NCBI GenBank assembly: GCA_022425325.1
Contig: JAKMFW010000004.1
Span: 1-38,599 of the forward strand
Direction of reading: 5' to 3'
Source: Acidimicrobiales bacterium
GTDB taxonomy: Bacteria; Actinomycetota; Acidimicrobiia; Acidimicrobiales; Aldehydirespiratoraceae
DNA length: 38,599 nucleotides
Shown: one piece after another, positions 6,005 through 33,225 of the stretch
How the letters are laid out: every line of letters begins with the position of its first letter
Position numbering within the stretch: the first letter of the stretch is position 1
Notes under the pieces: generated by a model
What the model was told of the DNA's origin: nothing
Databases searched by the model: none
What the model saw: the letters and a program-made list of their open reading frames with translations, nothing else
Program-made: the position numbers and the translations under genes

Positions 6005-6029
6005 CCGCCGACGGTAGCGTTCGCGGCAA
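6005..6029. promoter_or_regulatory. 25-bp bidirectional promoter with overlapping -10 elements
   Basis: The gap between the SDR and the hydroxylase contains ACGGTAGCGT (6011-6020). Minus strand: TACCGT (6011-6016), 6 nt from the SDR ATG. Plus strand: TAGCGT (6015-6020), 9 nt from the ATG at 6030. The two hexamers share the central TA, so one near-symmetric site could serve both directions. Confidence 0.5.
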
Positions 6030-7136: not shown

Positions 7137-8609
7137 ATGGCGGCCGAGTCTCTCCATCCCGTGCAACGTCCGGGACGCCACATCGAACTCGTTCTGCGCT
7201 TTCCGAGCCTGCCGGAAGCGCTCGTCGCGCTCGCCAACGACCCGTCGATCATCCCGGTCGCCGGCGGCACAGACCTCCTGCTCGACTTGCACCGTGGCGG
7301 CCCTGGCGAGCCGGTGACCCTCCTTGATCTGACCCCGATCCGTGAGCTGCAGGGGATCACCATCGCCAACGGCATCGTCCGACTCGGTGCACTCACGACC
7401 CACAACGACGTCGCCGGGCACCCGGAGCTTCCGGTGGTTGCGCTCCCACTTGCCCAGGCCTGCCTGGAGATCGGGTCGCCGCAGCTTCGCAACCGGGCCA
7501 CGATCGCCGGCAACATCGCCACCGCAAGCCCGGCCAACGACACGATTTCGGCGCTGCTCGCGCTCGACGCGATGGTCATCATCGCAAGCAACGGCGCCGA
7601 ACGGACGGTGCGTCTCGACGACTTCTTCACCGGCTTCCGTTCGACCGTCCTGCAACCGGGAGAGCTCATCACGGCGATCGAGTTCCCGACACTCGGTGAC
7701 TCCGAGTCGGGAATCTGGGCCAAGCTCGGCAACCGCGCCGCCCAGGCCATCTCGGTCGTTCATCTCGGGATCGTCGTCGACCGCGCCGACGACGGCGTCG
7801 TGCGTGACGCTCGCATCGCGATCGGTTCGGTCGCCGCTCGCGTCGAGGTGCTCCACGACGCCGCAGCGGCGCTCATCGGTCGAGCGCTCGACGAAACGTC
7901 GATCGCTGCGTGCGCCGAGGTCGCGGCCGCAGCCGTGGCTCCGCTCGACGATGTACGCGCGACCGCCGCCTACCGCTCTGCACTCATCCCGACCCTTGTC
8001 CGTCGTTCGCTCGACGCCATTCGCACCGGTACCACCGACCATCAGTGGCCGGGCCGGGTGCCGTGCCTGGTCGGCGATATGCCGCCCGGCACCAGCGAGC
8101 GGCGGGCAGTCGACGACAACTCCGAGATCCAGGTGATGCTCAACGGCGCACCGGTGAGTGGCCGAAACGCCGCCTCGGCGACCCTGCTCGACTGGTTGCG
8201 CGACGAGGCCGGGCTGACAGGAACCAAGGAGGGATGCGCCGAGGGCGAGTGCGGTGCCTGCACCGTGCAGCTCGATGGTGATGCCGTCATGGCGTGCCTC
8301 GTACCGGCCGCTCAGGTCGACGGCCACAGCGTCGCAACGGTCGAGAGCATGGCCGACCCCGATGGCACGCCACACGCGATCCAGCAGGCGTTCGTCGACG
8401 AATTCGCGGTGCAGTGCGGTTTCTGTATCCCCGGCTTCATCGTGGCGTCGGCCAGCCTCCTGGGCGAGATCCACGACCCGACCGACGACGACATCCGGCT
8501 CGGACTCTCCGGCAACCTGTGCCGTTGCACCGGCTATTACCCGATCATGCAGGCGGTCCGCCGAGCCAGTGTCGTGCCGGTCGAACTCAACGAGAGCGTG
8601 TTCGGATGA
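7137..8609 (+). CDS. Xanthine dehydrogenase-family FAD/[2Fe-2S] fusion subunit
   Basis: A 490-aa fusion. Residues about 18-295 are the FAD domain, with VAGGTDLLLD (41-50) and TIAGNIATASPANDT (122-136). A linker follows. Residues about 328-480 are a two-cluster [2Fe-2S] domain: Cys367, Cys372, Cys375 and Cys387 for the plant-type cluster and Cys427, Cys430, Cys462 and Cys464 for the helical cluster. The order FAD then FeS is reversed relative to canonical XdhA, where FeS comes first. It would carry electrons from the Mo chain encoded immediately downstream (4-nt overlap) to its acceptor. A purine substrate is inferred from the neighbours. Confidence 0.92.
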   Translation: MAAESLHPVQRPGRHIELVLRFPSLPEALVALANDPSIIPVAGGTDLLLDLHRGGPGEPVTLLDLTPIRELQGITIANGIVRLGALTTHNDVAGHPELPVVALPLAQACLEIGSPQLRNRATIAGNIATASPANDTISALLALDAMVIIASNGAERTVRLDDFFTGFRSTVLQPGELITAIEFPTLGDSESGIWAKLGNRAAQAISVVHLGIVVDRADDGVVRDARIAIGSVAARVEVLHDAAAALIGRALDETSIAACAEVAAAAVAPLDDVRATAAYRSALIPTLVRRSLDAIRTGTTDHQWPGRVPCLVGDMPPGTSERRAVDDNSEIQVMLNGAPVSGRNAASATLLDWLRDEAGLTGTKEGCAEGECGACTVQLDGDAVMACLVPAAQVDGHSVATVESMADPDGTPHAIQQAFVDEFAVQCGFCIPGFIVASASLLGEIHDPTDDDIRLGLSGNLCRCTGYYPIMQAVRRASVVPVELNESVFG

Positions 8610-10852
8610 GCGTCGGTCAGTCCCCGCTCCGCCACGACGCCGCCGCCAAGACCGACGGGTCGATCGAATACGCAGGCGATGCCGTGCCGGCCGGAGCACT
8701 GCACGCCGTTGTCGTCTTCTCGGGCCGGGCTCACGCCCGGATGCTGTCGATGTCGACCGATGCGGCACGTGCGGTGCCCGGCGTCGTCGACATCATCACC
8801 GCCACCGACGCGCCCGTGAACGAGTACGGCCTCACGATGCGCGACCAGCCTGCGCTCGTGGGGGTCGACCACACGGGTACAGCCGCCGTCGACGCTGCGG
8901 TCAGCCGCTGGGAAGCGGATCAGATCGCCGTTGTGATCGCCGAGACGCGCACCGCCGCCACCGCCGGCGCCGCCGCGATCGAGGTCGAGTGGGAGGACCT
9001 TCCGCTCGTCGACAACATCGACGCCGCGCTCGCTCCCGGGGCCCCGCTGGTCCACCCCGAGAACGGGCTCGACACCAACGCCTACCACCACCTTCGAATC
9101 CGCAAGGGCGATCCCGACTTCGGCTTCGCCTTGGCCTACGCCGTCGTCGACGAGGTGTACGAGGTCCCGCATCAGGAACACGCCTACCTTCAACCTGAGG
9201 CCGGCACCGCCTACATCGACGAGGAGGGCCGGGTCACGATCGAAATCGGTGGCCAGTGGACATCGGAGGATCGCGAACAGGTCGCTCACGTACTCGGGCT
9301 GCCCGAGGATCGGGTCCGGATCATCTACAAGGCGATCGGCGGCGCGTTCGGCGGCAAAGAGGACATGTCGATCCAGATCGCCCTTGGCTTGGCCGCGATG
9401 CGCCTCGCCGAACGTGGTGAGCACCGCCCGATCCACTGCCGGTGGTCACGGGAGGAGTCAATCGTCGGTCACCACAAGCGGCACCGGGGCCGCATCCGCA
9501 TCCGCCTGGGAGCGACCCACGACGGCACGATCACGGCACTCGAAGCCGACGTCGACCTCGACGCCGGTGCCTACAACTACACGTCCAACAAGGTGCTCGG
9601 GAACGCCCATCTGTCGGTCGCCGGCGCGTACCGCATCCCGCATGCCCGCATCGACAGCCGGGCGATCTACACCACCACCGTGCCGGGCGGTGCCTTCCGT
9701 GGCTTCGGTGGGCCGCAGGGCCACTTTGCGATCGAGTCGGCGGTCAACCGGCTTGCCGCCGAACTCGGGATCGATCCGGTCGAGATGCGCCTTCGCAACG
9801 CCCTCGTCGACGGCGACGACGGCATCACCCAGACCGTCATGCCCGAGGGGGTGAGCATGCGCGAAGTCATCACGGCGTGCTCCCTGCAGGCCGAACTCGA
9901 CGAGGCCCTCCCCGACCCTGCGCCCTTCTCCCCGATCGCATCGCTGCCCTCCGCCACGACCTCGCTGCGCAAGGGACGAGGGTTCGCCGCCGGGTTCAAG
10001 AACATCGGCTTCTCGTTCGGTTTCCCCGAGCGCTGCGAGGCCGAAATCGTCCTGCACGGCGACCCCGACGACGAGGCCCCGACGAGTGCCGAACTCTTCC
10101 ACGGTGGCGCCGAGGTCGGGCAGGGCGCTCATCTCGCCATGCGTCAGATGGCGTCCGAAGCCACGGGCGTCGCGCTCGATGACATCCACGGGCACTTCTC
10201 GGACACCGCCACCTCAGGCGACCCCGGCTCGGCGTCTGCGAGCCGTCTGACGTTCATGGCCGGCAATTCGATCCTCGGTGCCGCCGAGGAGGCCGAGAAG
10301 GCCTGGCGCGAGGGCGATCGGCCCGCTCGTGGCTTCTTCCGGTACACGCCGCCACCCACCGAGGCGCTCGATCCCGAGACCGGCGCCGGTGCGCCGAACT
10401 TCTGCTACGGCTACATGGCGCAGTGCATCGAGGTCACCGTCGATGTCGATACCGGCCACATCCGTGTCGACCGGGTCACGTCGACCCACGACGTCGGCAA
10501 GGCGATCAACCCTGCGCTTGTGCGCGGCCAGATCGAGGGGGCTGTCGTTCAGGCGCACGGCTACGCAATGAGCGAGGACCTCCAGCTCGCCGACGGCTTC
10601 ATCACGAACCCTCGGTTCTCGGGGTATCTGATTCCCGGCATCGGCGACATTCCGGTGCAGGTCGACAGCCAGATCCTCGAGCTCGCTGATCCGCTCGGCC
10701 CGTTCGGTGCCCGCGGCGTCGCCGAGATGCCGTTCATCACGTATGCGCCGGCGCTCACTGCGGCGGTATACGACGCCACCGGCGTGTGGTTCGACACGTT
10801 CCCGCTCACCCCGAGCCGGGTGCTCGCCGGGCTCCAGGCCGCGGAGGAGTAA
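8606..10852 (+). CDS. Xanthine dehydrogenase-family molybdopterin catalytic subunit
   Basis: Started at the ATG overlapping the upstream TGA (ATGA), giving 748 aa, normal for the Mo chain of this family. Motifs: GGAFGGKED (Mo-cofactor Gln/Gly loop region), AFRGFGGPQ, and GARGVAE at 701-707 with Glu707 as the catalytic base. It lacks the AYRCSFR loop of form I CO dehydrogenases, so CO oxidation is unlikely. It hydroxylates a purine, aldehyde or N-heterocycle using water as oxygen source; the specific substrate is not readable. The longer in-frame extension from 8294 lies inside the preceding gene and is rejected. Confidence 0.93.
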   Translation: MSVGQSPLRHDAAAKTDGSIEYAGDAVPAGALHAVVVFSGRAHARMLSMSTDAARAVPGVVDIITATDAPVNEYGLTMRDQPALVGVDHTGTAAVDAAVSRWEADQIAVVIAETRTAATAGAAAIEVEWEDLPLVDNIDAALAPGAPLVHPENGLDTNAYHHLRIRKGDPDFGFALAYAVVDEVYEVPHQEHAYLQPEAGTAYIDEEGRVTIEIGGQWTSEDREQVAHVLGLPEDRVRIIYKAIGGAFGGKEDMSIQIALGLAAMRLAERGEHRPIHCRWSREESIVGHHKRHRGRIRIRLGATHDGTITALEADVDLDAGAYNYTSNKVLGNAHLSVAGAYRIPHARIDSRAIYTTTVPGGAFRGFGGPQGHFAIESAVNRLAAELGIDPVEMRLRNALVDGDDGITQTVMPEGVSMREVITACSLQAELDEALPDPAPFSPIASLPSATTSLRKGRGFAAGFKNIGFSFGFPERCEAEIVLHGDPDDEAPTSAELFHGGAEVGQGAHLAMRQMASEATGVALDDIHGHFSDTATSGDPGSASASRLTFMAGNSILGAAEEAEKAWREGDRPARGFFRYTPPPTEALDPETGAGAPNFCYGYMAQCIEVTVDVDTGHIRVDRVTSTHDVGKAINPALVRGQIEGAVVQAHGYAMSEDLQLADGFITNPRFSGYLIPGIGDIPVQVDSQILELADPLGPFGARGVAEMPFITYAPALTAAVYDATGVWFDTFPLTPSRVLAGLQAAEE

Positions 10853-10868
10853 GGCGGGGGTAACGCCT
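10852..10868 (+). terminator. Weak hairpin after the Mo-subunit gene
   Basis: aggcg (10852-10856) pairs with cgcct (10864-10868) directly after the stop codon. The stem is only 5 bp and there is no T-run. Confidence 0.2.
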
Positions 10869-10884
10869 CTCTGGCGTCGACGCG

Positions 10885-10896
10885 TACTGTCGGCTC
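10885..10896 (+). promoter_or_regulatory. Leaderless -10 element for the DUF1214 gene
   Basis: TACTGT (10885-10890), 6 nt, then the ATG at 10897. Confidence 0.5.
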
Positions 10897-11985
10897 ATGA
10901 GGGACGAACAGCACCGAGACGACGTGGTCACCGGCAGGGCGTGGGCGGACTTTTGCGATGCCTTGAAATCGGCCGGCGATCTCATCACGGCGAACAGCAC
11001 GGACGACCTCGATCGCATCGAGGGTTTCCGCTATCTGAGCCGGCTGGCCCGTGGTGGGCTCACGGCGTTCATCGAGAACGGCGATCGAGTTCGCCCCTTC
11101 ATCCTGCCGATCCCGTTCAACCTGAAGATCGGTTGTGACAATCCCGACGCCGACTATCGCAATGTCGGGGTCGACCCTCGATTCGACTACCGCATTACGG
11201 GCACGCGCGGCACGGTCAACTTCCTCAGTATCGGCGCCTATTCGGGCGGCTACGGAACGAACTCGGCGACACCGGGTGCACAGGGGAACATCACCGACAA
11301 CGACCCGGACCAGGACCGGCCGATCGACATCATCGCCAGCGTCGAACCGCCAGAACTCGCACCCGGCCAGCAGTGGCTGGAGATGTCTCCGGCGACGACG
11401 GTGATCATCGTCCGGAACTTTTTCCTCGACCGGGAGCACGAACGATCGTCGGAACTCGAGATCGAGTGCCTGAATCCGCCGACCGAGCACCCCGATGCGC
11501 TGTCGGCCGACGAGTTCGCCACCGGACTCGCGATGAGCGGCTTCTACGTCCACGGCATCGTGCAGCGCTTCCTCGACTGGCTGGCGATGTTCCGTGAGAA
11601 CCCCAACACGCTCGAGTTTCTGCCCCAAGACGACGGCCCGGGCGGCTGGGGCGACCCGAATCAACTTTTCCGCCACGGCTGCTGGGATCTTCCGGAGGAC
11701 AAGGCGTTCCTCATCACCGTGCCGGCGATCGATGCCTTCTACTGGAACTTCCAGCTCAACAACATGTGGGAAGAGTCACTCGACTACCGACGCTTCCCCG
11801 TCACGGTCAACAAGCACACCGCCCGCTACGAGGACGACGGCACAGTCCGAATCGTCGTGAGCCGCACCGATCCGGGCTGGGGCAACTGGATCTCGACTGC
11901 CCACCACGATCACGGCACCTGGGGCCTGCGTTACAACCAGGTCGTCGAGGACATCCCGCCGACGATCGAACTCATCGACGTCTGA
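10897..11985 (+). CDS. DUF1214 domain-containing protein
   Basis: A 362-aa protein. The C-terminal half resembles DUF1214, with YWNFQLNNMWEESLDYR, VNKHTARYEDDGTVRIVVS and NWISTAHHDHGTWGLRY. The N-terminal DUF1254 partner domain found in many relatives is not apparent. Function unknown. No signal peptide is seen, unlike many DUF1254/1214 proteins. It sits between a Mo-hydroxylase operon and a convergent enoyl-CoA hydratase gene (3-bp gap), with its own predicted promoter, so a link to purine use is not established. Confidence 0.75.
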   Translation: MRDEQHRDDVVTGRAWADFCDALKSAGDLITANSTDDLDRIEGFRYLSRLARGGLTAFIENGDRVRPFILPIPFNLKIGCDNPDADYRNVGVDPRFDYRITGTRGTVNFLSIGAYSGGYGTNSATPGAQGNITDNDPDQDRPIDIIASVEPPELAPGQQWLEMSPATTVIIVRNFFLDREHERSSELEIECLNPPTEHPDALSADEFATGLAMSGFYVHGIVQRFLDWLAMFRENPNTLEFLPQDDGPGGWGDPNQLFRHGCWDLPEDKAFLITVPAIDAFYWNFQLNNMWEESLDYRRFPVTVNKHTARYEDDGTVRIVVSRTDPGWGNWISTAHHDHGTWGLRYNQVVEDIPPTIELIDV

Positions 11986-11988
11986 GCG

Positions 11989-12738
11989 TCATCGCCCCGG
12001 CCACTCGGGCGGTCGGCGCTCGAAAAACGCAGCGAGGCCTTCCTCGCGATCTTCGCTCGTGAGGATCGTGTTCATCGCTGCTTCCGTGGCGGCCCAGCCG
12101 GCCGCATCGTCGTCCTCGGAGATCGCGTCGAGTGCCGTGAGCGTGGCGCGGATCGATGTCGGCGCATTGAGTTCGATCCGTTCAGCGAGCGCGATGGCCT
12201 CGGCGACGGCCATGCCCGGCTCGACGACCCGGTTGACGACACCCAGGTCGGCCAGGCGCTGTGCCGAGACCGGATCCCCGGTCAGCAACATCTCCCTCGC
12301 CACGTTCAGGGGCAACGCCCGAGGCACCCGGAACAGACCTGCACTCGTTGCGACGAGACCACGCCGTACCTCGGGCAGTCCAAAGGTGGCCGACGAGGAC
12401 GCCACGATCAGGTGGCAGGCGAGCGCTATCTCGAAGCCGCCTCCGAAGGCGGAACCTTCGACTGCGGCGATGATCGGGGTGTTCGAGCGCCGACGGATGA
12501 TGCCGTACTCCCCGCCCCGGTCGGTCGGCGTGCCGGACCCTTCCGCAATGTCGGTGCCTGCGCAGAAGACCGTCGGTCCGCCGGCGATCACGATCGCTCG
12601 GACGGCGGGGTCATCCTCGCCGGCGTCGAGCGCAGCGCTGATCGATTCGGTCATTTCGCCGTTGATGGCGTTGCGCTTCTCGTCGCGGTCGAGCTGGACG
12701 ACGAGCACGCCACCGTGGCGTTCGGTCTTGACGGGCAT
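11989..12738 (-). CDS. Enoyl-CoA hydratase/isomerase family protein
   Basis: A 249-aa crotonase-fold protein starting at the ATG at 12738; the Arg/Ser-rich upstream extension overlaps the neighbouring amidohydrolase antiphase and is not coding. RDEKRNAIN, FCAGTDI (oxyanion-hole region), GGGFEIALACHL and FGLPEVRRG are present; the Glu in GGGFE and the Glu in LPEV correspond to the two catalytic acids of true hydratases. It probably hydrates an enoyl-CoA in beta-oxidation or a side pathway. TACCGT sits 6 nt before the ATG. Confidence 0.88.
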   Translation of the reverse strand: MPVKTERHGGVLVVQLDRDEKRNAINGEMTESISAALDAGEDDPAVRAIVIAGGPTVFCAGTDIAEGSGTPTDRGGEYGIIRRRSNTPIIAAVEGSAFGGGFEIALACHLIVASSSATFGLPEVRRGLVATSAGLFRVPRALPLNVAREMLLTGDPVSAQRLADLGVVNRVVEPGMAVAEAIALAERIELNAPTSIRATLTALDAISEDDDAAGWAATEAAMNTILTSEDREEGLAAFFERRPPEWPGR

Positions 12739-12750
12739 GCGCCGACGGTA
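12739..12750 (-). promoter_or_regulatory. Leaderless -10 element for the enoyl-CoA hydratase gene
   Basis: On the minus strand TACCGT (12745-12750) is 6 nt from the ATG at 12738, identical in sequence and spacing to the element before the SDR gene. Confidence 0.5.
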
Positions 12751-12832
12751 GTCCTCCCGTGGGGAACCCGAGCGCCTCACGATCTCGTAGCGCAGCGCCG
12801 TGCGTGAGAAAACGAGGGGGAGACCCGACGAC

Positions 12833-14218
12833 TCAGTCGGTCGGTTGGAAGCGACGAGCAGCCGCGGCGTGCGCTGCGAGCTTTTCGTCGAGATCCGGTG
12901 CGACGAGCAGGCCCGACTCGACGACCAGACGACCGGCGACGACCGTGTGCCAGGCCGAGTGGGGGCCGGTTCGCAGCCAGCCCTCGATGAGGTCGTCGAG
13001 CACGCCCGCGAAGATCGGGCCGTCGAGTTTCCAGACGGCAATGTCGCCGACCGCCCCGACCGACAGCTCGCCGATCTCGCCGATGCGGCCGAGGCAACCA
13101 GCACCGCCGCGGGTGGAGATCTCCAGGGCGGTTCGGGCATCCATTGCGTCGGCGCCGCTCTTCAGCTTGCCCTGCAGCATGGCGAGGCGGGCTTCCTGCC
13201 ACAGCGAGGCGGAGTCGGCCGACGAGGATCCGTCGCAGCCGAGGCCGACGTGACAGCCGGCGTGGCGGAGATCGACGACTGGGGCGATGCCCGACGACAG
13301 GATCATGTTCGAGCTCGGGCAGTGGGCGATCCCGACGCCGGCAGCGCCGAGCCGGGCGACTTCGTCCGGGTTCGGCATGACGACGTGAGCACCCCAACTG
13401 CGATCCGACATCCAGCCACAGTGCTCGTAGTAGTCGACGGGCCGCATGCCGAAGGTGGCGATGGCGTACTCGTCGTCCTCGCTGTTCTCGGCAAGGTGGG
13501 TGTGCAGACGGACGTCGAGGCGTTCGGCGAGTTCGGCGCTGCGGATCATGAGGTCCTCACTCACCGAGAACGGCGAGCAGGGGGCGAGCGCAACCCGAAC
13601 CATCGCGCCGTGGCTGCGGTCGTGATGGCGTTCCACCGCCCGTTGGGATTCGGCGAGGATGTCGTCTTCGTCTCGCACGGCATCGTCGGGTGGGAGGCCG
13701 CCGTCGCTCTCCCCCACCGACATCGACGCATAGGTCGGGTGGAAGCGCATGCCGAGATCGACTGCGGCCTGGATCTCCGCGCCGAGCAGGTCGCCCGCCC
13801 GAACCGGGTGGAGATAGTGGTGATCCGAGGAGGTGGTGCAGCCGGAGAGCGCGAGTTCGGCGAGCCCGACCCAGGCGGCGAGGTACTCGGCCTCCTCGTC
13901 GATCGCTGCGGTCCACAGCGGGTAGAGCGATTGCAGCCATCCGAAGAGCGGGGCGCTCGTCATCGGCGGGTAGGCGCGGGTGAGGTTCTGGAACAGGTGA
14001 TGGTGGGTGTTGACCAGGCCCGGGGTGACGAGGCAACCGCCGGCATCGACGATGCGCTCGGCATCAGGCATCGGGTCGGTCGAGCCCCCGACGCCGGAGA
14101 TCAACCCGTCGGTGATTGCCACCCAGCCTCCGGCGAGCTCGCGACGGTCATCGTCGACCGTGGCCACGAGGGCAGCCCCATGAATCAGGAGGTCGGCGCG
14201 AATCGGCAGGTCAGTCAT
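12833..14218 (-). CDS. 8-oxoguanine deaminase-like amidohydrolase
   Basis: A 461-aa metal-dependent amidohydrolase (TIM barrel flanked by a small beta domain). Metal and active-site segments: TPGLVNTHHHLFQNLTRA near residue 70, LAPCSPFSVSEDLM, LHTHLAENSEDDEY, AHCPSSNMILSSGIAPV and GLGCDGSSSADS. This set matches 8-oxoguanine deaminase rather than simple guanine or cytosine deaminases; the family also includes triazine hydrolases. It would convert 8-oxoguanine to uric acid plus ammonia in the cytosol. Its start overlaps the regulator gene upstream by 8 nt, so the two form an operon. Confidence 0.85.
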   Translation of the reverse strand: MTDLPIRADLLIHGAALVATVDDDRRELAGGWVAITDGLISGVGGSTDPMPDAERIVDAGGCLVTPGLVNTHHHLFQNLTRAYPPMTSAPLFGWLQSLYPLWTAAIDEEAEYLAAWVGLAELALSGCTTSSDHHYLHPVRAGDLLGAEIQAAVDLGMRFHPTYASMSVGESDGGLPPDDAVRDEDDILAESQRAVERHHDRSHGAMVRVALAPCSPFSVSEDLMIRSAELAERLDVRLHTHLAENSEDDEYAIATFGMRPVDYYEHCGWMSDRSWGAHVVMPNPDEVARLGAAGVGIAHCPSSNMILSSGIAPVVDLRHAGCHVGLGCDGSSSADSASLWQEARLAMLQGKLKSGADAMDARTALEISTRGGAGCLGRIGEIGELSVGAVGDIAVWKLDGPIFAGVLDDLIEGWLRTGPHSAWHTVVAGRLVVESGLLVAPDLDEKLAAHAAAARRFQPTD

Positions 14219-14705
14219 CGTCGTTGTGGATGGCGTTCAGGTAGTTGTAGATCGTGATGCGGCTGACCCCCATCATCTCGCCGACCGATTCGACCGCCTT
14301 GCGGAGCAGGAAGGCCCCCCGCTGATCGAGGATCCGGACGGCGGCCTGCTTCTGCTCACGACTGAGTTCGGCCAGCGGCGCGCCGAGTTGCTCCTCGACT
14401 GCGGCGACCATCTGGGCAAGAACATCGTGGAGGTCACCGAAGCGGGTGGTGGCCGGGCTCTCCCCTAATCGCACCTGCACGGCGGTCGCCCCGTGCTGAA
14501 GGGCAGCCTGGCTCATCGACTCGACCGCGGCCGTGACCGTGTCGGTCGGGCCGACGATCACCGTGGCGAACGGGCCCATCTCCGGCTCGAGACCGTGCTG
14601 GCGGCAGGCCTCCAACGCCATCGTGACGTGGTGGCCGGGCGCGCCTTCGACGAACGGCTCGACCAGGAACTCGGCCCGGATGTCGGCGGTTGCACTGGTA
14701 GCCAT
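14211..14705 (-). CDS. Transcriptional regulator with YkoF/MTH1187-like domain and HTH
   Basis: A 164-aa two-domain protein. Residues about 10-90 (EFLVEPFVEGAPGHHV, then EMGPFATVIVG and VQVRLGE) resemble the thiamine/hydroxymethylpyrimidine-binding MTH1187/YkoF fold. Residues about 113-158 (LSREQKQAAVRILDQRGAF to GVSRITIYNYL) match the DauR/YheO-type HTH. The arrangement suggests a ligand-sensing DNA-binding protein; the ligand may be a purine or pyrimidine-like molecule (inference). It is transcribed divergently from the M20 hydrolase across 31 bp and leads an operon with the deaminase, so it is the natural candidate regulator of this region. Confidence 0.8.
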   Translation of the reverse strand: MATSATADIRAEFLVEPFVEGAPGHHVTMALEACRQHGLEPEMGPFATVIVGPTDTVTAAVESMSQAALQHGATAVQVRLGESPATTRFGDLHDVLAQMVAAVEEQLGAPLAELSREQKQAAVRILDQRGAFLLRKAVESVGEMMGVSRITIYNYLNAIHNDDD

Positions 14706-14736
14706 GGCTTTGACAGTTTGTTAACTTCGCCCCGTT
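14706..14736. promoter_or_regulatory. Divergent promoter region with short inverted repeat
   Basis: The 31-bp gap is AT-rich compared with its surroundings. On the plus strand TAACTT (14722-14727) is 9 nt before the ATG at 14737. On the minus strand AACTGT lies 7 nt before the ATG at 14705. AGTT-N4-AACT (14715-14726) is an inverted repeat covering both, a possible autoregulatory operator. A TTGACA (14710-14715) is present, but its spacing to a plausible -10 is poor. Confidence 0.35.
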
Positions 14737-15981
14737 ATGGCAACCCTCTCGAGCGACCTGCGCATCGATATCGACCGGCTCAGCGATCGGCTGGCGGCGT
14801 TGGCCGAGATCGGCGCCATCGAGGGCACCGAGGGGTGCGCTCGCCTTGCCCTGACCGATGAGGACAAAGTGGGCCGCGATCTGGTCGTGTCATGGATGCG
14901 TGATCTTGACCTCACGATCACCGTCGACAGCATCGGCAACGTCGTCGGCGTCATGGGTGGCGAACACGACGGTCAACCCGTCATGACGGGCTCCCACATC
15001 GACACCGTGCGCACCGGTGGGCGCTACGACGGCAACCTGGGCGTGCTGGCCGGGCTCGAGGTGATCGAAACGCTTCGGGCCGCCGGCATCACCCCGCCGC
15101 GAGGTCTTGCTGTTGCGTTCTTCACCGACGAGGAGGGGGCCCGCTTCCCGCCCGACATGCTCGGCAGCCTCGTCTACGTCGGCGGCATGGGCGTCGAGGA
15201 GGCCCACGCGATCGAGGGCATCGACGGCGCCACCGTCGGGGGCGAACTCGACCGCATCGGATATCTCGGGCCTGCCCCGCTCCCCGCCCCGGCGCCGCAC
15301 GCCTTCGTTGAACTCCATGTCGAGCAGGGCCCGGTGCTGGAGGCCGAGGAACTGACCATCGGAGCGGTCACCGGCGTCCAGGGCATCAGCTGGACCGAAG
15401 TAAGCGTGACCGGCCAGTCCAACCACGCCGGCACCACCCCGATGGCGTTGCGCAAGGATCCCGCCGTCGTTGCGTTCCGGACGGCGGCATTTGTCCGCGA
15501 ACTGGCCGATGAACTCGGGGCCCCGCAGGTCGCAACCGTCGGCCGCATGCATCTGCATCCCAACCTGGTCAACGTCGTGCCCGCCACTGCCGAGTTCACG
15601 ATCGATCTGCGCCACACCGACAACGATGTGCTCCTCGATGCCGAACGCCGAACCCTCGAGTTCCTGCTCGAGGCGGCAGCTGCGGAGGGCTGCACGGTCA
15701 CGACGAAGAGCCTGGCCCGCTTCGATCCCGTCGAGTTCGACGACGCAGTCGTCGCCTGCGTGGAGCAAACGGCCCTCACCCAGGGCCACACCGTACGCCG
15801 CATGCCATCCGGCGCCGGCCACGACGCCCAGATGCTGGCCCGTGTCTGCCCGACCGGGATGATCTTCGTGCCATCGGTGAACGGGCTGAGTCACAACCCG
15901 GCCGAGTACACCAGCCCGGCCGATCTCGAGGCAGGCGCCAACGTCCTGCTCCAGGTCATGCTCGAATTGGCGGCGACATGA
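14737..15981 (+). CDS. Allantoate/N-carbamoyl-L-amino acid amidohydrolase (M20)
   Basis: A 414-aa Zn-dependent hydrolase of the allantoate amidohydrolase / ureidopropionase / L-carbamoylase group. Metal-site segments: GSHIDTVRTGGRYDG (His87, Asp98) and TDEEGARF (Glu132-Glu133); GQSNHAGTTPM marks the dimerisation domain; SGAGHDAQML and SHNPAEYT complete the site. These enzymes hydrolyse ureido or carbamoyl groups, releasing CO2 and ammonia in purine, pyrimidine or hydantoin breakdown. Its stop overlaps the nitrilase start by 4 nt, and the regulator lies divergently upstream, placing it first in a catabolic operon. Confidence 0.88.
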   Translation: MATLSSDLRIDIDRLSDRLAALAEIGAIEGTEGCARLALTDEDKVGRDLVVSWMRDLDLTITVDSIGNVVGVMGGEHDGQPVMTGSHIDTVRTGGRYDGNLGVLAGLEVIETLRAAGITPPRGLAVAFFTDEEGARFPPDMLGSLVYVGGMGVEEAHAIEGIDGATVGGELDRIGYLGPAPLPAPAPHAFVELHVEQGPVLEAEELTIGAVTGVQGISWTEVSVTGQSNHAGTTPMALRKDPAVVAFRTAAFVRELADELGAPQVATVGRMHLHPNLVNVVPATAEFTIDLRHTDNDVLLDAERRTLEFLLEAAAAEGCTVTTKSLARFDPVEFDDAVVACVEQTALTQGHTVRRMPSGAGHDAQMLARVCPTGMIFVPSVNGLSHNPAEYTSPADLEAGANVLLQVMLELAAT

Positions 15982-16985
15982 GCGCAACCCCGATGGATCC
16001 CGACGCTGCGGCGGGTGGCGCTCACGAGCCGCCGCCACCTCGGCGCCTCGTCGTCTCCGCCGGGCAGCTCGGCCCGATCCACCGCAACGAATCGCGAGCA
16101 TCGGTCGTCGACCGCCTGATCCGTCTTCTCGAGCAGGCCCACAGCGAGGGCGCCGAACTGATCGCCTTTCCAGAATTGGCGCTCACCACCTTCTTCCCGC
16201 GCTGGTACGTCGAGGGTGATCCGGAGCTCGATCTCGACTCGTTCTACGAGACCGAGATGCCCGGTCCCGAGACCAAACGCCTCTTCGCGCGTGCCGCCGA
16301 ACTCGAGGTGGGGTTCTGTCTCGGGTACGCCGAGCTCACCCCCAATGGACGTCGCTTCAACACCCAGATCCTTGTTGAGCGCGACGGTTCGATCGTCGGC
16401 ACGTACCACAAGGTCCACCTGCCCGGTCATCGTGAACATGAGCCATGGCGGGAGTTTCAGCACCTCGAACGCCGCTACTTCGAACCCGGTGATTCGTTCG
16501 ATACGTGGAACGCGTTCGGCGGTGTCGTCGGGATGGCCACCTGCAACGACCGCCGATGGCCGGAGACCTACCGGGTGCTCGCATTGAACGGTGCCGAGCT
16601 GATCCTGATCGGTTACAACACGCCGAAGCACTACGCGCCCGACCCGAGCCAGGACCCGCTCCAGGGCTTCCACAATCGGCTCGTGATGCAGGCCGGGGCG
16701 TACCAGAACGGCTGCTACGTGATCGGCACCGCAAAGGGCGGGGACGAAGAGGGCGTGCCATCGCTCGCTGAGAGTTGCATCATCGCCCCGAGCGGCGAGA
16801 TCCTCGTCGGCTGCCATACCGAAGCCGACGAGGTCGTCACCGCCGAGATCGATCTCAGCCTCACCGCCAAGTACCGGGAGACGCTGTTCGACTTCGAGCG
16901 ATATCGGCGTCCCGACGCGTACGGCCCGATCACTGCCCAGAAGGGCGCCACGCCCCCATTCTCACCGGAGGTCAGTCATGGCTGA
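15978..16985 (+). CDS. N-carbamoyl-D-amino acid hydrolase-like nitrilase family protein
   Basis: A 335-aa carbon-nitrogen hydrolase. The catalytic triad is Glu66 (AFPEL), Lys145 (YHKVHLPG) and Cys189 (MATCNDRRWPE). LALTTFFPRW, DSFYETEMPGP, FQHLERRYFEPGD and LIGYNTPKH closely follow D-carbamoylases (DCase, HyuC type), more than beta-ureidopropionases. It would hydrolyse an N-carbamoyl compound to amine, CO2 and ammonia. An N-terminal Pro/Ala-rich extension of about 20 residues is unusual; a later start is possible. It overlaps its neighbours on both sides (4 and 8 nt). Confidence 0.88.
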   Translation: MSATPMDPDAAAGGAHEPPPPRRLVVSAGQLGPIHRNESRASVVDRLIRLLEQAHSEGAELIAFPELALTTFFPRWYVEGDPELDLDSFYETEMPGPETKRLFARAAELEVGFCLGYAELTPNGRRFNTQILVERDGSIVGTYHKVHLPGHREHEPWREFQHLERRYFEPGDSFDTWNAFGGVVGMATCNDRRWPETYRVLALNGAELILIGYNTPKHYAPDPSQDPLQGFHNRLVMQAGAYQNGCYVIGTAKGGDEEGVPSLAESCIIAPSGEILVGCHTEADEVVTAEIDLSLTAKYRETLFDFERYRRPDAYGPITAQKGATPPFSPEVSHG

Positions 16986-19566
16986 GTTCACCGTCAACGG
17001 CCAGACCGTCTCGGTCGGCGATCACCACGACCATCTGCTTGCAGCACTGCGTGACGAGTTGCGGATCACCTCGCCGAAGGACGGCTGTTCACCGTCGGGC
17101 CAGTGCGGGTGCTGCACGGTGTTGATCGACGGCAAAGCGCGCATCTCGTGCCAGACCTCGCTGGAGAAGGCGGCCGGCGCCGAGATCACCACGCTCGAGG
17201 GTGTCGACGAAGCCGAGCGGCAGCGAATGGCTGACACATTCGCCGCCCACGGTGCACTGCAGTGCGGCTTCTGCACACCTGGCATCGTGATGCGCACCGT
17301 CGCGTTGCTCGGCCGCGATAAGGAAACCACCCGCGACGACGCCGCCCGCCATCTCGGTGCCCATCTGTGCCGTTGCACCGGCTACGTGAAGATCCTCGAC
17401 GCCGTCGAATCGCTTGCCGCCGGCGAGACCCCGGTTGCCATCACGGAGGGTGGGGTCGGCGGACGCGGCGTGAAGTACGAGGGTCAGGAGCTCTCGCTCG
17501 GCGACCGCGGCTTCATCGACGACATGGAGCCCGAGGGCTGTCTGCACGGGGCGGTCGTCCTCAGCGAACACGCTCGCGCCGACATCATGGCCATCGAGCC
17601 AGCCGATGCGCTCGCCATGCCCGGCGTGGTTGCGGTGCTCACCGCCGATGATGTCCCCGGCGAGCTGCGCAGCGGGCTGATTCACAAGGATTGGCCGGCC
17701 TTCATCCCGGTCGGCGGCCGTACCTCTTATCTCGGCGATGTGGTGGCGCTTGTCGTGGCCGAAACCCGTGCCCAGGCTCGGGCTGCCACGTCGGCGGTCT
17801 CCGTGACCTACGACGTGCATGAGCCACTCACCGATCCGGCGGCGGCACTTGCCTCCGACGAAGATGCCGTCTGGACCCTCTCGGGCAATGAGCTCAGCCG
17901 GTCCACGTACGTCCGCGGCGACGTCGACGAGGCGCTCGCCCGATCGGCCCACGTGGCCCGGCAAACCTTCCAGACGCAGCGCATCGACCATGCCTTCCTC
18001 GAGCCCGAATCGACACTTGCGGTTCCGTCCATCGGCGCCGACGGCTCGACGGAATCGCTGTACGTGTATTCCGGCGGCCAGGGCGTATGGGACGACCGCA
18101 ACGACATCGCCCGGATGCTCGACGTCAGCACCGACAAGGTCACCGTCGAACTCGTGTCGAACGGCGGCGCATTCGGCGGCAAAGAGGACATGTCGAACCA
18201 GGGTCAGACCGCCCTCGCCGCCTGGCTGCTCGGTCGTCCGGTGAAGACCACCTTCTCGCGCGAAGAGTCGTTCCTCGTGCACACGAAACGCCACCCGATC
18301 CGCATGGAGTACGAGGTCGGCTGCAACACCGACGGCAAACTCCTCGCCGTCAAGGCCCGCATGATCGGCGACTCCGGTCCGTATGCCTCGGTGGGCATGA
18401 AGGTGCTGGAGCGGGCCGCTGGTCACGCAAGCGGGCCGTACGTCACCGAGACGATCGACATCGACGCCGTCGCGGTCCGCACCAACAACTCGGTGTGCGG
18501 CGCGTTTCGCGGTTTCGGCGCCAACCAGGCCCAGTTCGCGATGGAGGGCATGATGGATCGGCTCGCCGAGATGGCCGGCATCTCGGGGTGGGAGATCCGC
18601 AGCCGCAATGTCGTCGAGCCCGGCGTTGTGTGGGGCCCCGGCCAGATCATGGACGACGGCTGCCTCGGTGCCCGCGCCTGTCTCGACGCCGTGAAACCGG
18701 CATGGGATGCGGCGGTCGCTGCCGGGAATCCCGTCGGCATGGGGCTCGGCCTGAAGAACTCCGGTCTCGGAAACGGCGCCAACGAGGTCAGCCGTTCGAC
18801 CGTGCGGTTCGATCCCGACGGCACGATCGAGGTCCGACACTGCTGGACCGAGATGGGTCAGGGCATCCACACCGTCGCTCGCCAGGTTGCAGTCGAGGAA
18901 CTCGGTGTCGAACCCGATCGCATCACGGTCGTCGTCGACACCACCCGCGAGCTCGGCGCCGGTCAGACCACCGGCAGCCGCGGCACGGTCATGGGCGCCG
19001 GGTCGGTCGCCGATGCCTGCCGAAACGCGATGGCGGGCGGCTGCGAGGAGGGCGTCGAGTACGAGGGTGTCTATGTCGTCGACTGGACCAACTCGATCAA
19101 CGACGGCCTCGAGAATCCGGTGATCCACTCGACCTTCGGCTACGCCGCCCAGCTCGTCGAACTCGACCAGGAGACCGGCGAGATCGCCAAGGTCGTGGCG
19201 GCCCATGATGTCGGCCGAGCGGTCAACCCGTTGCTCTGCGAAGGCCAGATCGAGGGCGCCGTGCACATGGGGCTCGGCTACGCGCTCTCCGAGGGCTTCC
19301 CCTGCGACGAGCACGGCAAGCCACGCAACGAGACGCTGCGCTCACTCGACATCATCCGCCCGAAGGACATGCCGCCGACCGAGGTGATCCTCGTCGAGTC
19401 GCCCGACCCCAACTCGCCGTACGGCATCAAGGGTGTCGGCGAGATCGGACTTGTTCCCACCGCTGGCGCGGTTGCGGCGGCCCTGCACGCCCACGACGGC
19501 GAATGGCGTCACGAACTGCCGATGCGCACCGAGCGCAACCGAGAGCGGGCGAGCGCTTGGTCCTGA
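16978..19566 (+). CDS. FeS-Mo fused purine/xanthine hydroxylase
   Basis: An 862-aa fusion with a two-cluster [2Fe-2S] domain (residues 1-150) and a full Mo domain (about 160-862), but no FAD domain. FeS ligands: Cys37, Cys43, Cys45 or Cys46, and Cys58, then Cys96, Cys99, Cys131 and Cys133. Mo motifs: GGAFGGKED, AFRGFGANQ and GIKGVGE with Glu822 as catalytic base. This FeS-Mo layout and length match selenium-dependent-type xanthine dehydrogenases of purine-degrading bacteria. Electrons must go to a separate flavoprotein or ferredoxin. A GGAGG ribosome site lies 6 nt before the ATG. Confidence 0.9.
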   Translation: MAEFTVNGQTVSVGDHHDHLLAALRDELRITSPKDGCSPSGQCGCCTVLIDGKARISCQTSLEKAAGAEITTLEGVDEAERQRMADTFAAHGALQCGFCTPGIVMRTVALLGRDKETTRDDAARHLGAHLCRCTGYVKILDAVESLAAGETPVAITEGGVGGRGVKYEGQELSLGDRGFIDDMEPEGCLHGAVVLSEHARADIMAIEPADALAMPGVVAVLTADDVPGELRSGLIHKDWPAFIPVGGRTSYLGDVVALVVAETRAQARAATSAVSVTYDVHEPLTDPAAALASDEDAVWTLSGNELSRSTYVRGDVDEALARSAHVARQTFQTQRIDHAFLEPESTLAVPSIGADGSTESLYVYSGGQGVWDDRNDIARMLDVSTDKVTVELVSNGGAFGGKEDMSNQGQTALAAWLLGRPVKTTFSREESFLVHTKRHPIRMEYEVGCNTDGKLLAVKARMIGDSGPYASVGMKVLERAAGHASGPYVTETIDIDAVAVRTNNSVCGAFRGFGANQAQFAMEGMMDRLAEMAGISGWEIRSRNVVEPGVVWGPGQIMDDGCLGARACLDAVKPAWDAAVAAGNPVGMGLGLKNSGLGNGANEVSRSTVRFDPDGTIEVRHCWTEMGQGIHTVARQVAVEELGVEPDRITVVVDTTRELGAGQTTGSRGTVMGAGSVADACRNAMAGGCEEGVEYEGVYVVDWTNSINDGLENPVIHSTFGYAAQLVELDQETGEIAKVVAAHDVGRAVNPLLCEGQIEGAVHMGLGYALSEGFPCDEHGKPRNETLRSLDIIRPKDMPPTEVILVESPDPNSPYGIKGVGEIGLVPTAGAVAAALHAHDGEWRHELPMRTERNRERASAWS

Positions 19567-19571
19567 GCGAC

Positions 19572-19608
19572 CCACGCGTCTGCGCCGAGCGTGGTCGTGC
19601 GAGCACGA
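19572..19608. repeat. Two adjacent inverted repeats upstream of ssnA-like gene
   Basis: ccacgc/gcgtgg (19572-19577 and 19589-19594) is followed at once by the palindrome tcgtgcgagcacga (19595-19608). They fill the gap after the Mo hydroxylase. A termination/attenuation structure or an operator for the next gene are both possible; no T-run follows. Confidence 0.35.
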
Positions 19609-19636
19609 TCCACCTGCGAAGTGCGATGATCCGTTC

Positions 19637-20665
19637 ATGACGGTCTCGACACCGGGTCTGGTGTGTGCGCATCACCACCTGTACAGCGCACTCGCTCGCG
19701 GGATGCCGGCGCCGCCGCGAACACCCGGCGGCTTTCAGGAGATTCTTGAGCTCGTCTGGTGGCGACTCGACCTTGCGCTCGATCTGGAGGCGATCGAATG
19801 GTCGGCGAAGCTCGGCGCACTCGAGGCGCTCGAGCGGGGCACGACGGCGATCATCGACCATCACGAATCACCAAATGCGATCGAGGGCTCCCTCTCGGTC
19901 ATCGCCGACGCCTGTCAGGAGGTCGGCGTTCGGATCTCGTGCGCGTACGGCGTCACCGACCGTCACGGCCCCGAGGGGGCTGCTGCCGGTCTGGCCGAGA
20001 ATGATCGGTTCCTGGGCGACGGTGAACGCGAGGGGTATGTCGGCCTGCATGCCGCCTTCACGTGCTCCGACGACACGATCGCGGCGGCGGCGGAGCTGGC
20101 GAGGAAGCACGACGTCGGGGTGCATGTGCACGTCGCGGAAGGCGATTCCGACACCTGGCAACGGCTCGTCGATCACAGCGATGACGACTGGTTGATCGTC
20201 CACGGCGTCCACCTGCCTGACGATCACGGTCTTCGCGGCACCCTCGTACATAACCCTCGGTCGAACATGAACAACTCGGTCGGCTATGCCCGTCCAGCCC
20301 GGTTCGATGTGCCGATTGCGCTGGGCACCGACGGCATCGGCGCCGACATGCTCGAGGAGTTCCGGCTCGCCTATGTCGCCGCCCGCGCCGACGACGTCAC
20401 CGCCACTCCCGATCAGGCGTGGGGCTGGCTCCAGACCGGGTGGGATCTCATGCCGGCGGCGCTCGACGATCGGGTGTACTGGGCGGTCGAGTCCACCGAC
20501 CCCTGGCACCTTGCGTTCACGCCGGGTACCTCGCCGCTCGAGGTCGAGGTCGACGGGGAGGTCGTCTGGGACGGCGAGCCCACGCTCGTCGACGGCGACG
20601 AGATCCACGCCAAGGCAGCCGAGGCAGCGACGAAGCTGCACGCCCGTCTGGCTGCGCTCGACTAG
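19637..20665 (+). CDS. ssnA: SsnA-like aminohydrolase
   Basis: A 342-aa amidohydrolase matching SsnA of purine-degradation clusters: TPGLVCAHHHLYSALARGM, LVWWRLDLALD, IIDHHESPNAIEGSLS, VHVHVAEGDSD, HNPRSNMNNSVGYARP and ALGTDGIGADMLEEF. Metal His and Asp residues are intact. It starts at ATG 19637, directly before the first metal motif. The roughly 55-residue N-terminal beta-strand segment of SsnA is absent and there is no room for it before the upstream stop at 19566. The C-terminal beta strands (EVEVDGEVVWDG) remain. The likely role is hydrolytic deamination in purine breakdown; the exact reaction is unproven. Confidence 0.82.
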   Translation: MTVSTPGLVCAHHHLYSALARGMPAPPRTPGGFQEILELVWWRLDLALDLEAIEWSAKLGALEALERGTTAIIDHHESPNAIEGSLSVIADACQEVGVRISCAYGVTDRHGPEGAAAGLAENDRFLGDGEREGYVGLHAAFTCSDDTIAAAAELARKHDVGVHVHVAEGDSDTWQRLVDHSDDDWLIVHGVHLPDDHGLRGTLVHNPRSNMNNSVGYARPARFDVPIALGTDGIGADMLEEFRLAYVAARADDVTATPDQAWGWLQTGWDLMPAALDDRVYWAVESTDPWHLAFTPGTSPLEVEVDGEVVWDGEPTLVDGDEIHAKAAEAATKLHARLAALD

Positions 20666-21409: not shown

Positions 21410-22423
21410 CTACAGCGAATACACCCGGCGGGCGGTGCCGCTGAACATGGCCGTCTGTTCGTCGTCGCTGAAGTCGGCGACCAGCTTCTGGAAGACGTTC
21501 CACACCACGGTGTACGACGCCGACATCTTGTCGACCGGGAAGTTGCTCTCGAACATGCAACGATCGGGGCCGAAGCACTCGATCATGTGCTCGTACCAGC
21601 GGCGCTGATCGGCGAGGATCTGGTCGCTCGACGGGGGTTGAGCCATCCGCTCGTATCCGAAGCCGTTGTCGGGCATGGCGAGGCCGCCGAGTTTCGCAAC
21701 GACGTTCTCGCAGGCGGCGATCTCGCGCATGTCCTCACACCAGGTCGGGAAGATCTCGTCGTGTTTTCCGGCGAAACGGCCGACGCCGAGGGGTGTGCCG
21801 AAGTGGTCGAGCACCATGGTGGTCTCGGGTGCAGCACGGGCGACGGTGAGGAACTCACGGTTCTGATGGTGGTAGTGCCACGAGTCGTAGGTGAGATTGC
21901 GTTCGCCGAGCCGGCGCACACCGGCCTGGAATGCGGGGTCATCGGCGAGGCCCGCCGGTGAGCGGCCGGCGATCGTCAGCTCCTCGGGGGCGATCGGCGC
22001 CGACAGGGCGTGGCGGATGCCGCGAAAGAGACCGGCACCAGCGTCGATGTGGGCGTCGAGCACGTCGTCGACTGATACCGATCGCAGGTCGGCGGTGGCG
22101 ACGATGCCAGCGATCGGTGCCCGGTCGGGGTAGCGGTCGAGCAGTTCGGCGGCCGCGGCGGCGACGAAGCGGGTTTCGCCGACCGGGGCCATCGGGTCAT
22201 GGTCTCGGTGCGAGTAGCCGGCGCCGCACTCGACGAACACGGTCTTCACGATGTTGTGGCCCGAGCCGGTATCGGCCACGAGGTCGTCGACGCCATAGGT
22301 GAGCGGCAGTCCTGGCGGCCAGAGGTGGTGGTGGGGATCGACGATCGGGCGGGTCGGGTCGACCGGTTGTTCCGTGTAGGAGTCGAGCCAGTCCGGGGAC
22401 ATCGAAATCGCCATGGCGGTCAT
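21410..22423 (-). CDS. Amidohydrolase_2 family metal-dependent hydrolase
   Basis: A 337-aa TIM-barrel hydrolase from the ATG at 22423; the longer frame adds 33 Arg-rich residues running into the ribH promoter and is rejected. VDPHHHLWPP near the N-terminus is the metal-binding HxH, VLDHFGTPLG and the final FESNFPVDK are further family motifs. Members hydrolyse lactones or decarboxylate aromatic acids; the substrate here is unknown. A second in-frame ATG 9 nt downstream is also possible. It is divergent from ribH across 101 bp. Confidence 0.85.
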   Translation of the reverse strand: MTAMAISMSPDWLDSYTEQPVDPTRPIVDPHHHLWPPGLPLTYGVDDLVADTGSGHNIVKTVFVECGAGYSHRDHDPMAPVGETRFVAAAAAELLDRYPDRAPIAGIVATADLRSVSVDDVLDAHIDAGAGLFRGIRHALSAPIAPEELTIAGRSPAGLADDPAFQAGVRRLGERNLTYDSWHYHHQNREFLTVARAAPETTMVLDHFGTPLGVGRFAGKHDEIFPTWCEDMREIAACENVVAKLGGLAMPDNGFGYERMAQPPSSDQILADQRRWYEHMIECFGPDRCMFESNFPVDKMSASYTVVWNVFQKLVADFSDDEQTAMFSGTARRVYSL

Positions 22424-22511
22424 GGTCGCACGCCGACGAACGACGCGCCGAGGAAGCGCGACGTGTCGCACATCACGCACGTTCGACCTCTCTCCCCTCG
22501 TGAGGCGCCGA

Positions 22512-33113: not shown

Positions 33114-33225
33114 GACGGTCTCCTCACCCCTCGATAGTGGGAATCCGGAGTCTGTCATCTGTCCGACGCCGCTGCCCGTTGAGTACGCCGATTTCGAGGA
33201 AATCGTTCGTCCACAGCGGCCGGGT

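Follow-up and report, generated by a model that had tools for sequence, protein, structure and literature searches.

A Candidate Core of a Reductive Uric Acid Pathway with Substitute Enzymes in a Gene Cluster of an Acidimicrobiales Bacterium

The window analysed here is a stretch of 38,599 nucleotides from an Acidimicrobiales bacterium (assembly GCA_022425325.1, contig JAKMFW010000004.1, positions 1 to 38,599 of the forward strand), and the system in question is a cluster of ten genes at positions 7137-20665, both bounds of which coincide exactly with the ends of open reading frames (ORFs). We consider it likely that this cluster is the core of a reductive uric acid (yanthine) degradation pathway with several substitute enzymes. 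The argument is built on gene content, homology, co-occurrence and replacement patterns, from which every reaction, direction, cofactor and the order of steps are inferred. The source genome (G000) comprises 2.6 Mb in 102 contigs, the window being contig C73, and is 95% complete; a single complete pathway within the cluster is ruled out, as the genes for a luciferase-like protein (LLM) and for a pair of putative pyridoxal phosphate (PLP) enzymes, c5 and c8, lie on other contigs.

In the scheme proposed here, the reactions of which are taken from the reductive urate pathway of E. coli and Clostridium, reconstituted in 2025 (PMC12507026), the molybdenum (Mo) hydroxylase XBC-XA and an 8-oxoguanine deaminase (OGD) would supply urate, and the fused Mo enzyme XF would reductively remove its 6-oxo group to give 2,8-dioxopurine (yanthine). 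LLM, encoded on contig C94 and probably F420-dependent, would then dearomatise yanthine, SsnA would open the ring to give ureidomethyl-hydantoin, and a hydantoinase step, for which no gene was found in G000, would lead to 2,3-diureidopropionate. From the latter the D-carbamoylase NIT would take off the 2-ureido group and the M20 hydrolase the 3-ureido group, leaving diaminopropionate for conversion to pyruvate and ammonia by the putative c5/c8 enzymes of contig C30.

Results

The cluster and its recurrence across the order

The cluster genes that bear on this reading are:

7137..8609, + strand: XBC, fused flavin adenine dinucleotide (FAD) and 2Fe-2S subunit of a xanthine-dehydrogenase-type Mo hydroxylase (PF00941, PF03450, PF01799, PF00111)
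8606..10852, + strand: XA, Mo-binding subunit and partner of XBC (PF02738, PF20256, PF01315)
12833..14218, - strand: OGD, 8-oxoguanine deaminase (NF006055, 570.4 bits, cut-off 532)
14211..14705, - strand: REG, probable regulator (Thiamine_BP and HTH_22)
14737..15981, + strand: M20, carbamoylase/beta-ureidopropionase/allantoate-amidohydrolase-type hydrolase (TIGR01879, NF006771)
15978..16985, + strand: NIT, N-carbamoyl-D-amino-acid hydrolase homologue of the nitrilase family (1fo6, 346 bits)
16978..19566, + strand: XF, fused 2Fe-2S and Mo enzyme of the XdhAC or 'Se-dependent' type (TIGR03311, 795.7 bits)
19637..20665, + strand: SsnA, short form (PRK07203/TIGR03314, 249/231 bits)

Two divergent units face each other at 14705/14737, with REG and OGD running leftward and M20-NIT-XF-SsnA rightward; the coding sequences overlap by 8 bases between REG and OGD, by 4 between M20 and NIT and by 8 between NIT and XF, and XF is separated from SsnA by 70 bases. 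Farther left of these units are the paired Mo hydroxylase genes XBC-XA, along with those for a DUF1214 protein and an enoyl-CoA hydratase. Among the cluster proteins only OGD and M20 exceed curated NCBIfam cut-offs.

The comparison set consisted of 298 genomes of the same order, in which XF was called at E<=1e-100 and found in 122, and 40 XF neighbourhoods were compared gene by gene. Pieces of the gene set recur near XF orthologues in these neighbourhoods, so that the grouping goes beyond chance: the recurring neighbours are M20, NIT, SsnA, a YgfK-like protein, LLM, c5, c8, XBC-XA, a deaminase and a regulator, together with homologues of HyuA, YgeY and YgeX that score over their family cut-offs and a UacY-like protein of D-aminoacylase type that stays below every family cut-off. 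Taken together, these neighbours make up most of the gene set of the published reductive urate pathway (PMC12507026). Some XF clusters further hold nucleoside ABC importers and adenosine and adenine deaminases (named by reading), and in Candidatus Microthrix UBA814 (L178) LLM, M20, NIT, XF, SsnA, c8, c5 and a deaminase share one 22.6-kb locus. The named Acidimicrobiia with the cluster, among the matches listed, are metagenome-assembled genomes (MAGs), and some of their titles hint at ocean or bog.

The original prediction, made from the sequence alone, had placed two Mo hydroxylases, an 8-oxoguanine deaminase, an SsnA-like deaminase, an M20 hydrolase, a D-carbamoylase-like nitrilase and a regulator in this span. 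All are present, with identities backed by profile and structure-relative matches, and the inventory passed over the DUF1214 protein and the enoyl-CoA hydratase. Its assignment to purine degradation holds as the best reading in view of SsnA, OGD and the purine genes of the relatives' clusters, and the kinship that it saw to ssnA, M20 and Se-type-xdh gene sets holds as well.

A luciferase-like protein in place of YgfK

LLM occurs in 88 and YgfK in 30 of the 122 genomes that carry XF, with none holding both and four holding neither (three of these are 74-78% complete and one 90%); among the 176 genomes without XF, LLM is found in two and YgfK in none. Four genomes with only ~50% identical LLM paralogues (G016, G166, G191 and G214) were excluded from the LLM carriers. 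Both states are found within each of the families f1, f7, f28 and f52 and the genera g1 and g65, and thus the mutual exclusion is not one clade split. The LLM of G000 is 77% identical to the query, and no YgfK match was obtained in this genome at E<=1e-60 (UacX was not searched); its congener G281 has YgfK, on a different contig from XF. The YgfK-like protein of the relatives is 608 residues long and matches TIGR03315 with 441 bits against a cut-off of 835, its best stretch covering positions 5-398 of 1012.

LLM belongs to the luciferase-like family (PF00296, 230 bits; 138.8 bits to Mer, 1z69), and six solved relatives were found at E<=1e-15, all of them methylenetetrahydromethanopterin reductases and three named as F420-dependent. 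CofH, a marker of F420 synthesis, is matched in 266 of the 298 genomes and scores over its cut-off in G000. LLM is probably an F420-dependent reductase, with a cofactor assignment that is not secure.

Mo enzymes XF and XBC-XA

The TIGR03311 match of XF spans positions 2-842 of 848. XF and the Xdh of the E. faecalis and Collinsella ssnA/ygfK clusters fall into one group in a quick maximum-likelihood tree of 49 proteins; this group numbers 32 and has full support in the Shimodaira-Hasegawa-like approximate likelihood ratio test (SH-aLRT 100). Besides these two, the group draws its members from Acidimicrobiia, Acidobacteriota, Pseudomonadota, Bacteroidota, Chloroflexota and Elusimicrobiota, and SsnA lies close by in 26 of them, a label that was partly set by hand; XA of the window, E. 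coli XdhA and E. coli XdhD fall outside. The tree was built from 38 of the 82 loci L119-L200, together with 4 references and 7 neighbourhoods out of the 40, the other 44 loci having been left out for want of a one-piece XF match over 70% of the query, for a stop codon, or as near-identical copies (L123, L124, L140); support is by SH-aLRT only, with no bootstrap, and long branches such as EcXdhD are unsure. On this basis we propose XF as an XdhAC-type Mo enzyme and candidate reductase of urate to yanthine. It is important to note that E. coli XdhD, which catalyses this reaction in its own host, is of a more distant type, with XF just 24% identical to it.

XBC-XA probably makes urate from hypoxanthine or xanthine. 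XBC reaches none of the cut-offs of the 17 NCBIfam families listed, and the best NCBIfam match of XA is pucD (474 bits, cut-off 783.65). Two more large subunits of Mo hydroxylases, separated by about 10 kb, are encoded on contig C42 of G000 (L098) and share 28-31% identity with the Mo subunits of the window.

NIT and M20 as a proposed ureido-cleaving pair

Replacement patterns around XF were counted in 65 deduplicated loci, comprising the window, the 40 neighbourhoods and named loci with an XF match of more than 450 bits, from which the near-copies L123, L124 and L140 had been dropped; the named loci are a sample of at least 80. Each locus extends no more than about 10 kb to the left and right of XF, SsnA lies within reach in 51, and the presence cut-offs are our own. 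NIT is found in 32 of these loci and YgeW/UacY in 11, with no locus holding both; M20 is likewise found in 32 and YgeY in 10, again with no overlap. Furthermore, NIT and M20 stand together in 28 loci, and YgeY accompanies YgeW/UacY in 10 of 11. Since NIT never occurs with YgeW/UacY nor M20 with YgeY, the two probably replace the known ureido-cleaving pair.

NIT aligns to the solved D-carbamoylase 1fo6 over 297 residues and keeps PEL, the lysine (HK/RK) before HLPGH, and CNDRR, the stretches CNDRRWPET and PELALTTFFPRW being retained; these motifs we take to be the Cys-Glu-Lys site and the carboxylate-binding arginines. M20 exceeds the TIGR01879 cut-off (399 against 204 bits), belongs to another subfamily than YgeY, and counts among its solved relatives the N-carbamoyl-beta-alanine amidohydrolase 8c46, L-carbamoylases and allantoate amidohydrolases. 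As YgeW/UacY has been assigned to the 2-ureido group and YgeY to the 3-ureido group (PMC12507026), the simplest reading is that NIT would act on the 2-ureido group in its D form and M20 on the 3-ureido group. A second group places the order of ureido removal the opposite way (PMC12990295), which makes this assignment of positions tentative. No YgeW/UacY is found inside the cluster of the window (YgeW was searched for in the cluster only); three D-aminoacylase relatives elsewhere in G000 were set aside as UacY, being rather distant from it (27-34% identity, against 63-71% for the UacY of the relatives' clusters).

SsnA, 8-oxoguanine deaminase and regulator

The SsnA of the window is 34% identical to E. 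coli SsnA and about 50 N-terminal residues shorter; the 32 SsnA proteins passing the filter in the 40 neighbourhoods measure 338-376 residues, with one of 433, against 442 in E. coli. Residues H12, H14, H163, H165, H189 and D232, presumably the metal ligands, are invariant across 15 aligned proteins, and we propose the short SsnA as a candidate ring-opening hydrolase for dihydro-yanthine. OGD, with 3hpa and 7ww2 as solved relatives, would feed 8-oxoguanine into urate. REG fuses a Thiamine_BP (MTH1187-like) domain to HTH_22, an unusual architecture with matches beside the cluster in several relatives; the Collinsella ssnA/ygfK/xdh cluster has a PAS_6-HTH_22 protein nearby, with which REG shares HTH_22 while carrying Thiamine_BP instead of PAS.

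c5 and c8 as candidates for the last step

c5 and c8 are proteins of the PALP family that stay under the cut-off of every named family. In two MAGs, from Rubrivivax (L133) and Acidobacteria (L147), they adjoin YgeW, YgeY, YgfK, SsnA and XF; in MAGs of Bacteroidales and Elusimicrobia (L138, L139) c5 is found next to XF and SsnA without c8. Of the 12 PALP matches in G000, those at two places matched c5/c8, and the YgeX query hit none of them at E<=1e-10; the c5/c8 orthologues (64% and 43% identity) are adjacent on contig C30 at about 107-110 kb. The same contig carries a guanine-deaminase-type gene at ~142 kb (TIGR02967, 354 bits, cut-off 375). Judging from this gene company, c5/c8 are candidates for the diaminopropionate lyase.

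Uricase, allantoinase and the oxidative route

No uricase (PF01014) was matched in G000, a search that found the family in 2 of 14 control genomes; HpxO, PuuD, hydroxyisourate (HIU) hydrolase and 2-oxo-4-hydroxy-4-carboxy-5-ureidoimidazoline (OHCU) decarboxylase were not searched. Nine Amidohydro_1 matches were obtained in G000, two of them inside the window, and no allantoinase or hydantoinase was recognised among them. The oxidative purine route is thereby ruled out as the main explanation, within the limit that other urate oxidases were not searched. The host carries a gene for a COX1-type haem-copper oxidase (524.6 bits) and can probably respire oxygen.

As far as PF01014 and the Amidohydro_1 matches go, these results agree with the original prediction that uricase and allantoinase are lacking, and the genome search that it had called for, which extended to hyuA and ygfK, found neither these two nor a PF01014 uricase or an allantoinase in G000; its idea that a canonical pathway elsewhere might make the locus redundant has been pursued in part, the four enzymes just named lying outside the searches. 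Of the two ways out that it offered, an alternative ring-opening route is likely, and a pathway split across loci is what the genome presents, with LLM on C94 and the PLP lyase candidates on C30. Its description of the route as possibly undescribed does not hold for the kind of route, a reductive urate pathway having been published in 2025 (PMC12507026).

Neighbouring genes

Two further genes lie within the span of the cluster:

10897..11985, + strand: DUF1214 protein, lineage-specific (PF06742, 31 bits)
11989..12738, - strand: enoyl-CoA hydratase family protein, probably a bystander (PF00378)

Among the 40 neighbourhoods that of G084 (L045) alone has a DUF1214 protein. Elsewhere in the window, positions 31834-36002 hold a carbon monoxide (CO)-dehydrogenase-like set consisting of an FAD subunit, a 2Fe-2S subunit (tblastn match 33110-32673, same strand), CoxG, a MadB-like AAA ATPase and a CoxE-type VWA protein; the window holds no Mo large subunit for it. 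A mycofactocin radical SAM maturase at 3548-4708 (TIGR03962, 635 bits, cut-off 265) has a short-chain dehydrogenase gene nearby at 5219-6040, and a GcvT-fold protein at 2354-3487 is nearest to dimethylsulfoniopropionate demethylase, with an NF009133 score (338 bits) below the cut-off of 410.

Discussion

Several observations weigh against a reductive urate pathway with the substitutes proposed here. XF scores under the TIGR03311 cut-off of 830.45 bits, and E606, the residue proposed for E. coli XdhD (PMC12507026), sits in an insertion missing from XF; an XdhD-type identity received no support, and the comparison of XF next turned to the XdhAC type. The window's SsnA has SsnA as its best family, yet falls under both cut-offs (444 and 455.5 bits). 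M20 passes NF006771, a subfamily named for allantoate amidohydrolase, with 420.6 bits against a cut-off of 399. In the counts of loci, L061 carries NIT together with a weak UacY relative (31%), below the cut-off used; a gene missing from a neighbourhood may still be present in the genome, and the p-values come out too small because the loci are related. c5/c8 and YgeX do not exclude each other, co-occurring in three loci (p=0.51), and the exclusion counts thus give no support to c5/c8 as a strict replacement of YgeX. PF01014 uricase is matched in 0 of the 122 XF genomes and in 5 of the 176 others, a difference that is not significant (p=0.08). No HyuA match was obtained in G000 or G084 at E<=1e-50, which leaves one pathway step unfilled. 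Finally, CofH is missing in 12 of the 88 genomes with XF and LLM and fails to discriminate between the two reductases, occurring in 76 of these 88 and in 28 of the 30 with XF and YgfK.

It is this last pattern that makes F420 not secure as the cofactor of LLM: the carriers without a CofH match at E<=1e-60 include the three genomes of g3 (G200, G243, G262) and the five LLM carriers of g58 (G056, G098, G130, G183, G208). These gaps, and the presence of FMN (flavin mononucleotide) enzymes in the LLM superfamily, favour the use of reduced FMN by LLM, an alternative that concerns the cofactor only and is compatible with the pathway as a whole; set against the six solved relatives and the CofH of G000, we regard it as rather unlikely.

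A second alternative reverses the sense of XF, which would run oxidatively on another purine to yield yanthine or a related 8-oxopurine, so that only the later part of the pathway would be reductive and urate would not be its entry point. Ordinary Mo hydroxylases usually oxidise, the host has its COX1-type oxidase, and an XBC-like FAD subunit is matched in just 13 of the 40 neighbourhoods, which points to no particular electron donor for XF. This reading has to contend with the grouping of XF with the Xdh of ssnA/ygfK clusters and its travelling with YgfK or the LLM substitute, and with the report that C. sporogenes XdhAC, a protein not itself compared with XF, reduces urate with an artificial donor (PMC12990295); we hold it to be improbable.

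The unfilled hydantoinase step bears on whether the pathway is whole. HyuA-like genes are found in 110 of the 122 XF genomes and in 28 of the 176 others, some of these genes possibly serving in pyrimidine breakdown, and the nearest HyuA matches of G000 are dihydroorotases in pyrimidine-gene surroundings. Four further Amidohydro_1 proteins of this genome were scanned, giving one of guanine deaminase type, two dihydroorotases and one without a family at E<=1e-30, and the three remaining were assessed only by reading or by how far they stand from UacY. The two dihydroorotases are not put forward as the hydantoinase in view of their neighbours (PyrB- and CarA-like genes for one, a phosphoribosyltransferase-like gene for the other, by reading); they lie on contigs C87 and C88 of G000 (L009, L011) and are of different classes, one in a PyrB-PyrC-CarA-like arrangement and the other of the PyrC dimer type. 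A weak candidate for the hydantoin-opening step adjoins the cluster:

21410..22462, - strand: Amidohydro_2 protein (PF04909, 99 bits)

Among 41 places this gene is seen beside the cluster only in G000 and G084, both without HyuA, and the neighbourhood of the HyuA-bearing congener G281 has none. That G281 holds a HyuA-like gene and G000 and G084 do not would fit a pathway that in this genus is partly decayed or serves as just a nitrogen-scavenging branch, as would the interposed DUF1214 and enoyl-CoA hydratase genes and the scatter over three contigs; the cluster ORFs are intact, and XA, OGD, REG, M20, NIT, XF and SsnA are 94-98% identical in G084, and we judge this reading to have little probability. 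The missing hydantoinase, and the common plan of N-heterocycle routes, in which a Mo hydroxylase is joined by an amidohydrolase and a carbamoylase, could also suggest a utilisation locus for N-heterocycles or hydantoins unrelated to urate (nicotinate-, caffeine- or creatinine-like), with the D-carbamoylase and M20 releasing amino acids, a reading made very unlikely by SsnA, OGD and the YgfK, HyuA, YgeY, YgeX and adenine/adenosine deaminases of the relatives' clusters, which indicate purines, and by swap patterns of NIT and M20 in the 65 loci that match the urate pathway step by step.

So far, the reductive urate route has been elucidated in bacteria that grow anaerobically. The presence of SsnA in Actinomycetota, and of a putative F420 reductase where YgfK would be expected in Chloroflexota, has already been noted (PMC12507026), and the searches made, in open-access literature and mostly by listings, yielded no D-carbamoylase/M20 substitution, no c5/c8 PLP pair and no urate degradation in Acidimicrobiia. 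The present analysis gives genome-wide counts for this kind of substitution, of YgfK by a luciferase-like reductase, in Acidimicrobiia. A bolder proposal, about which we are evenly divided, is that environmental Acidimicrobiia which respire oxygen run the reductive urate pathway in full, using an F420-dependent yanthine reductase, a D-carbamoylase/M20 pair acting on D-2,3-diureidopropionate and a new c5/c8 diaminopropionate enzyme. If this is true, the pathway would be an old environmental trait and not a gut adaptation, and its ureido intermediates would be D-configured. XF occurs in many genomes of the order, a D-carbamoylase stands at the expected position of the 2-ureido enzyme, and separate assays are possible for the two ureido hydrolases; the locus also offers simple hydrolases instead of a carbamoyltransferase, plus a testable luciferase-family yanthine reductase.

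In comparison with known systems, the oxidative purine pathway (uricase, HIU hydrolase, OHCU decarboxylase, allantoinase) shares with the cluster an upstream Xdh and the allantoate-amidohydrolase subfamily of M20, and is set apart by the lack in G000 of a PF01014 uricase and of an allantoinase recognisable among its Amidohydro_1 matches. The E. coli pathway (xdhD-ygfM, ygfK, ssnA, hyuA, ygeW, yqeA, ygeY, ygeX; PMC12507026) has in common the core of Mo enzyme and SsnA, for which the same chemistry is proposed, whereas G000 is without a YgfK or HyuA match and its cluster without YgeW, with LLM, NIT and M20, or a gap, in their stead. Closer in their Mo enzyme are the ssnA/ygfK/xdh clusters of the E. 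faecalis plasmid pCF3A-343-2 and of Collinsella aerofaciens, to whose Xdh XF is 41% and 38% identical: ssnA is common to all, and these clusters hold YgfK, YgeW, YgeY and DpaL, that of E. faecalis adding selenium-cofactor genes, of which SelD, YqeB and YqeC have no match (E<=1e-10) in the other loci compared. In the C. difficile variant (UacX, UacY; PMC12507026) the 2-ureido group is likewise removed by a hydrolase and not by a carbamoyltransferase; UacY is an amidohydrolase of the D-aminoacylase family and NIT a nitrilase-family D-carbamoylase, a distinction drawn from description and not from sequence. The Chloroflexota variant (PMC12507026), likened by description as well, also replaces YgfK/UacX with a luciferase-family reductase, whereas the LLM reported here belongs to Acidimicrobiia and can lie far from ssnA.

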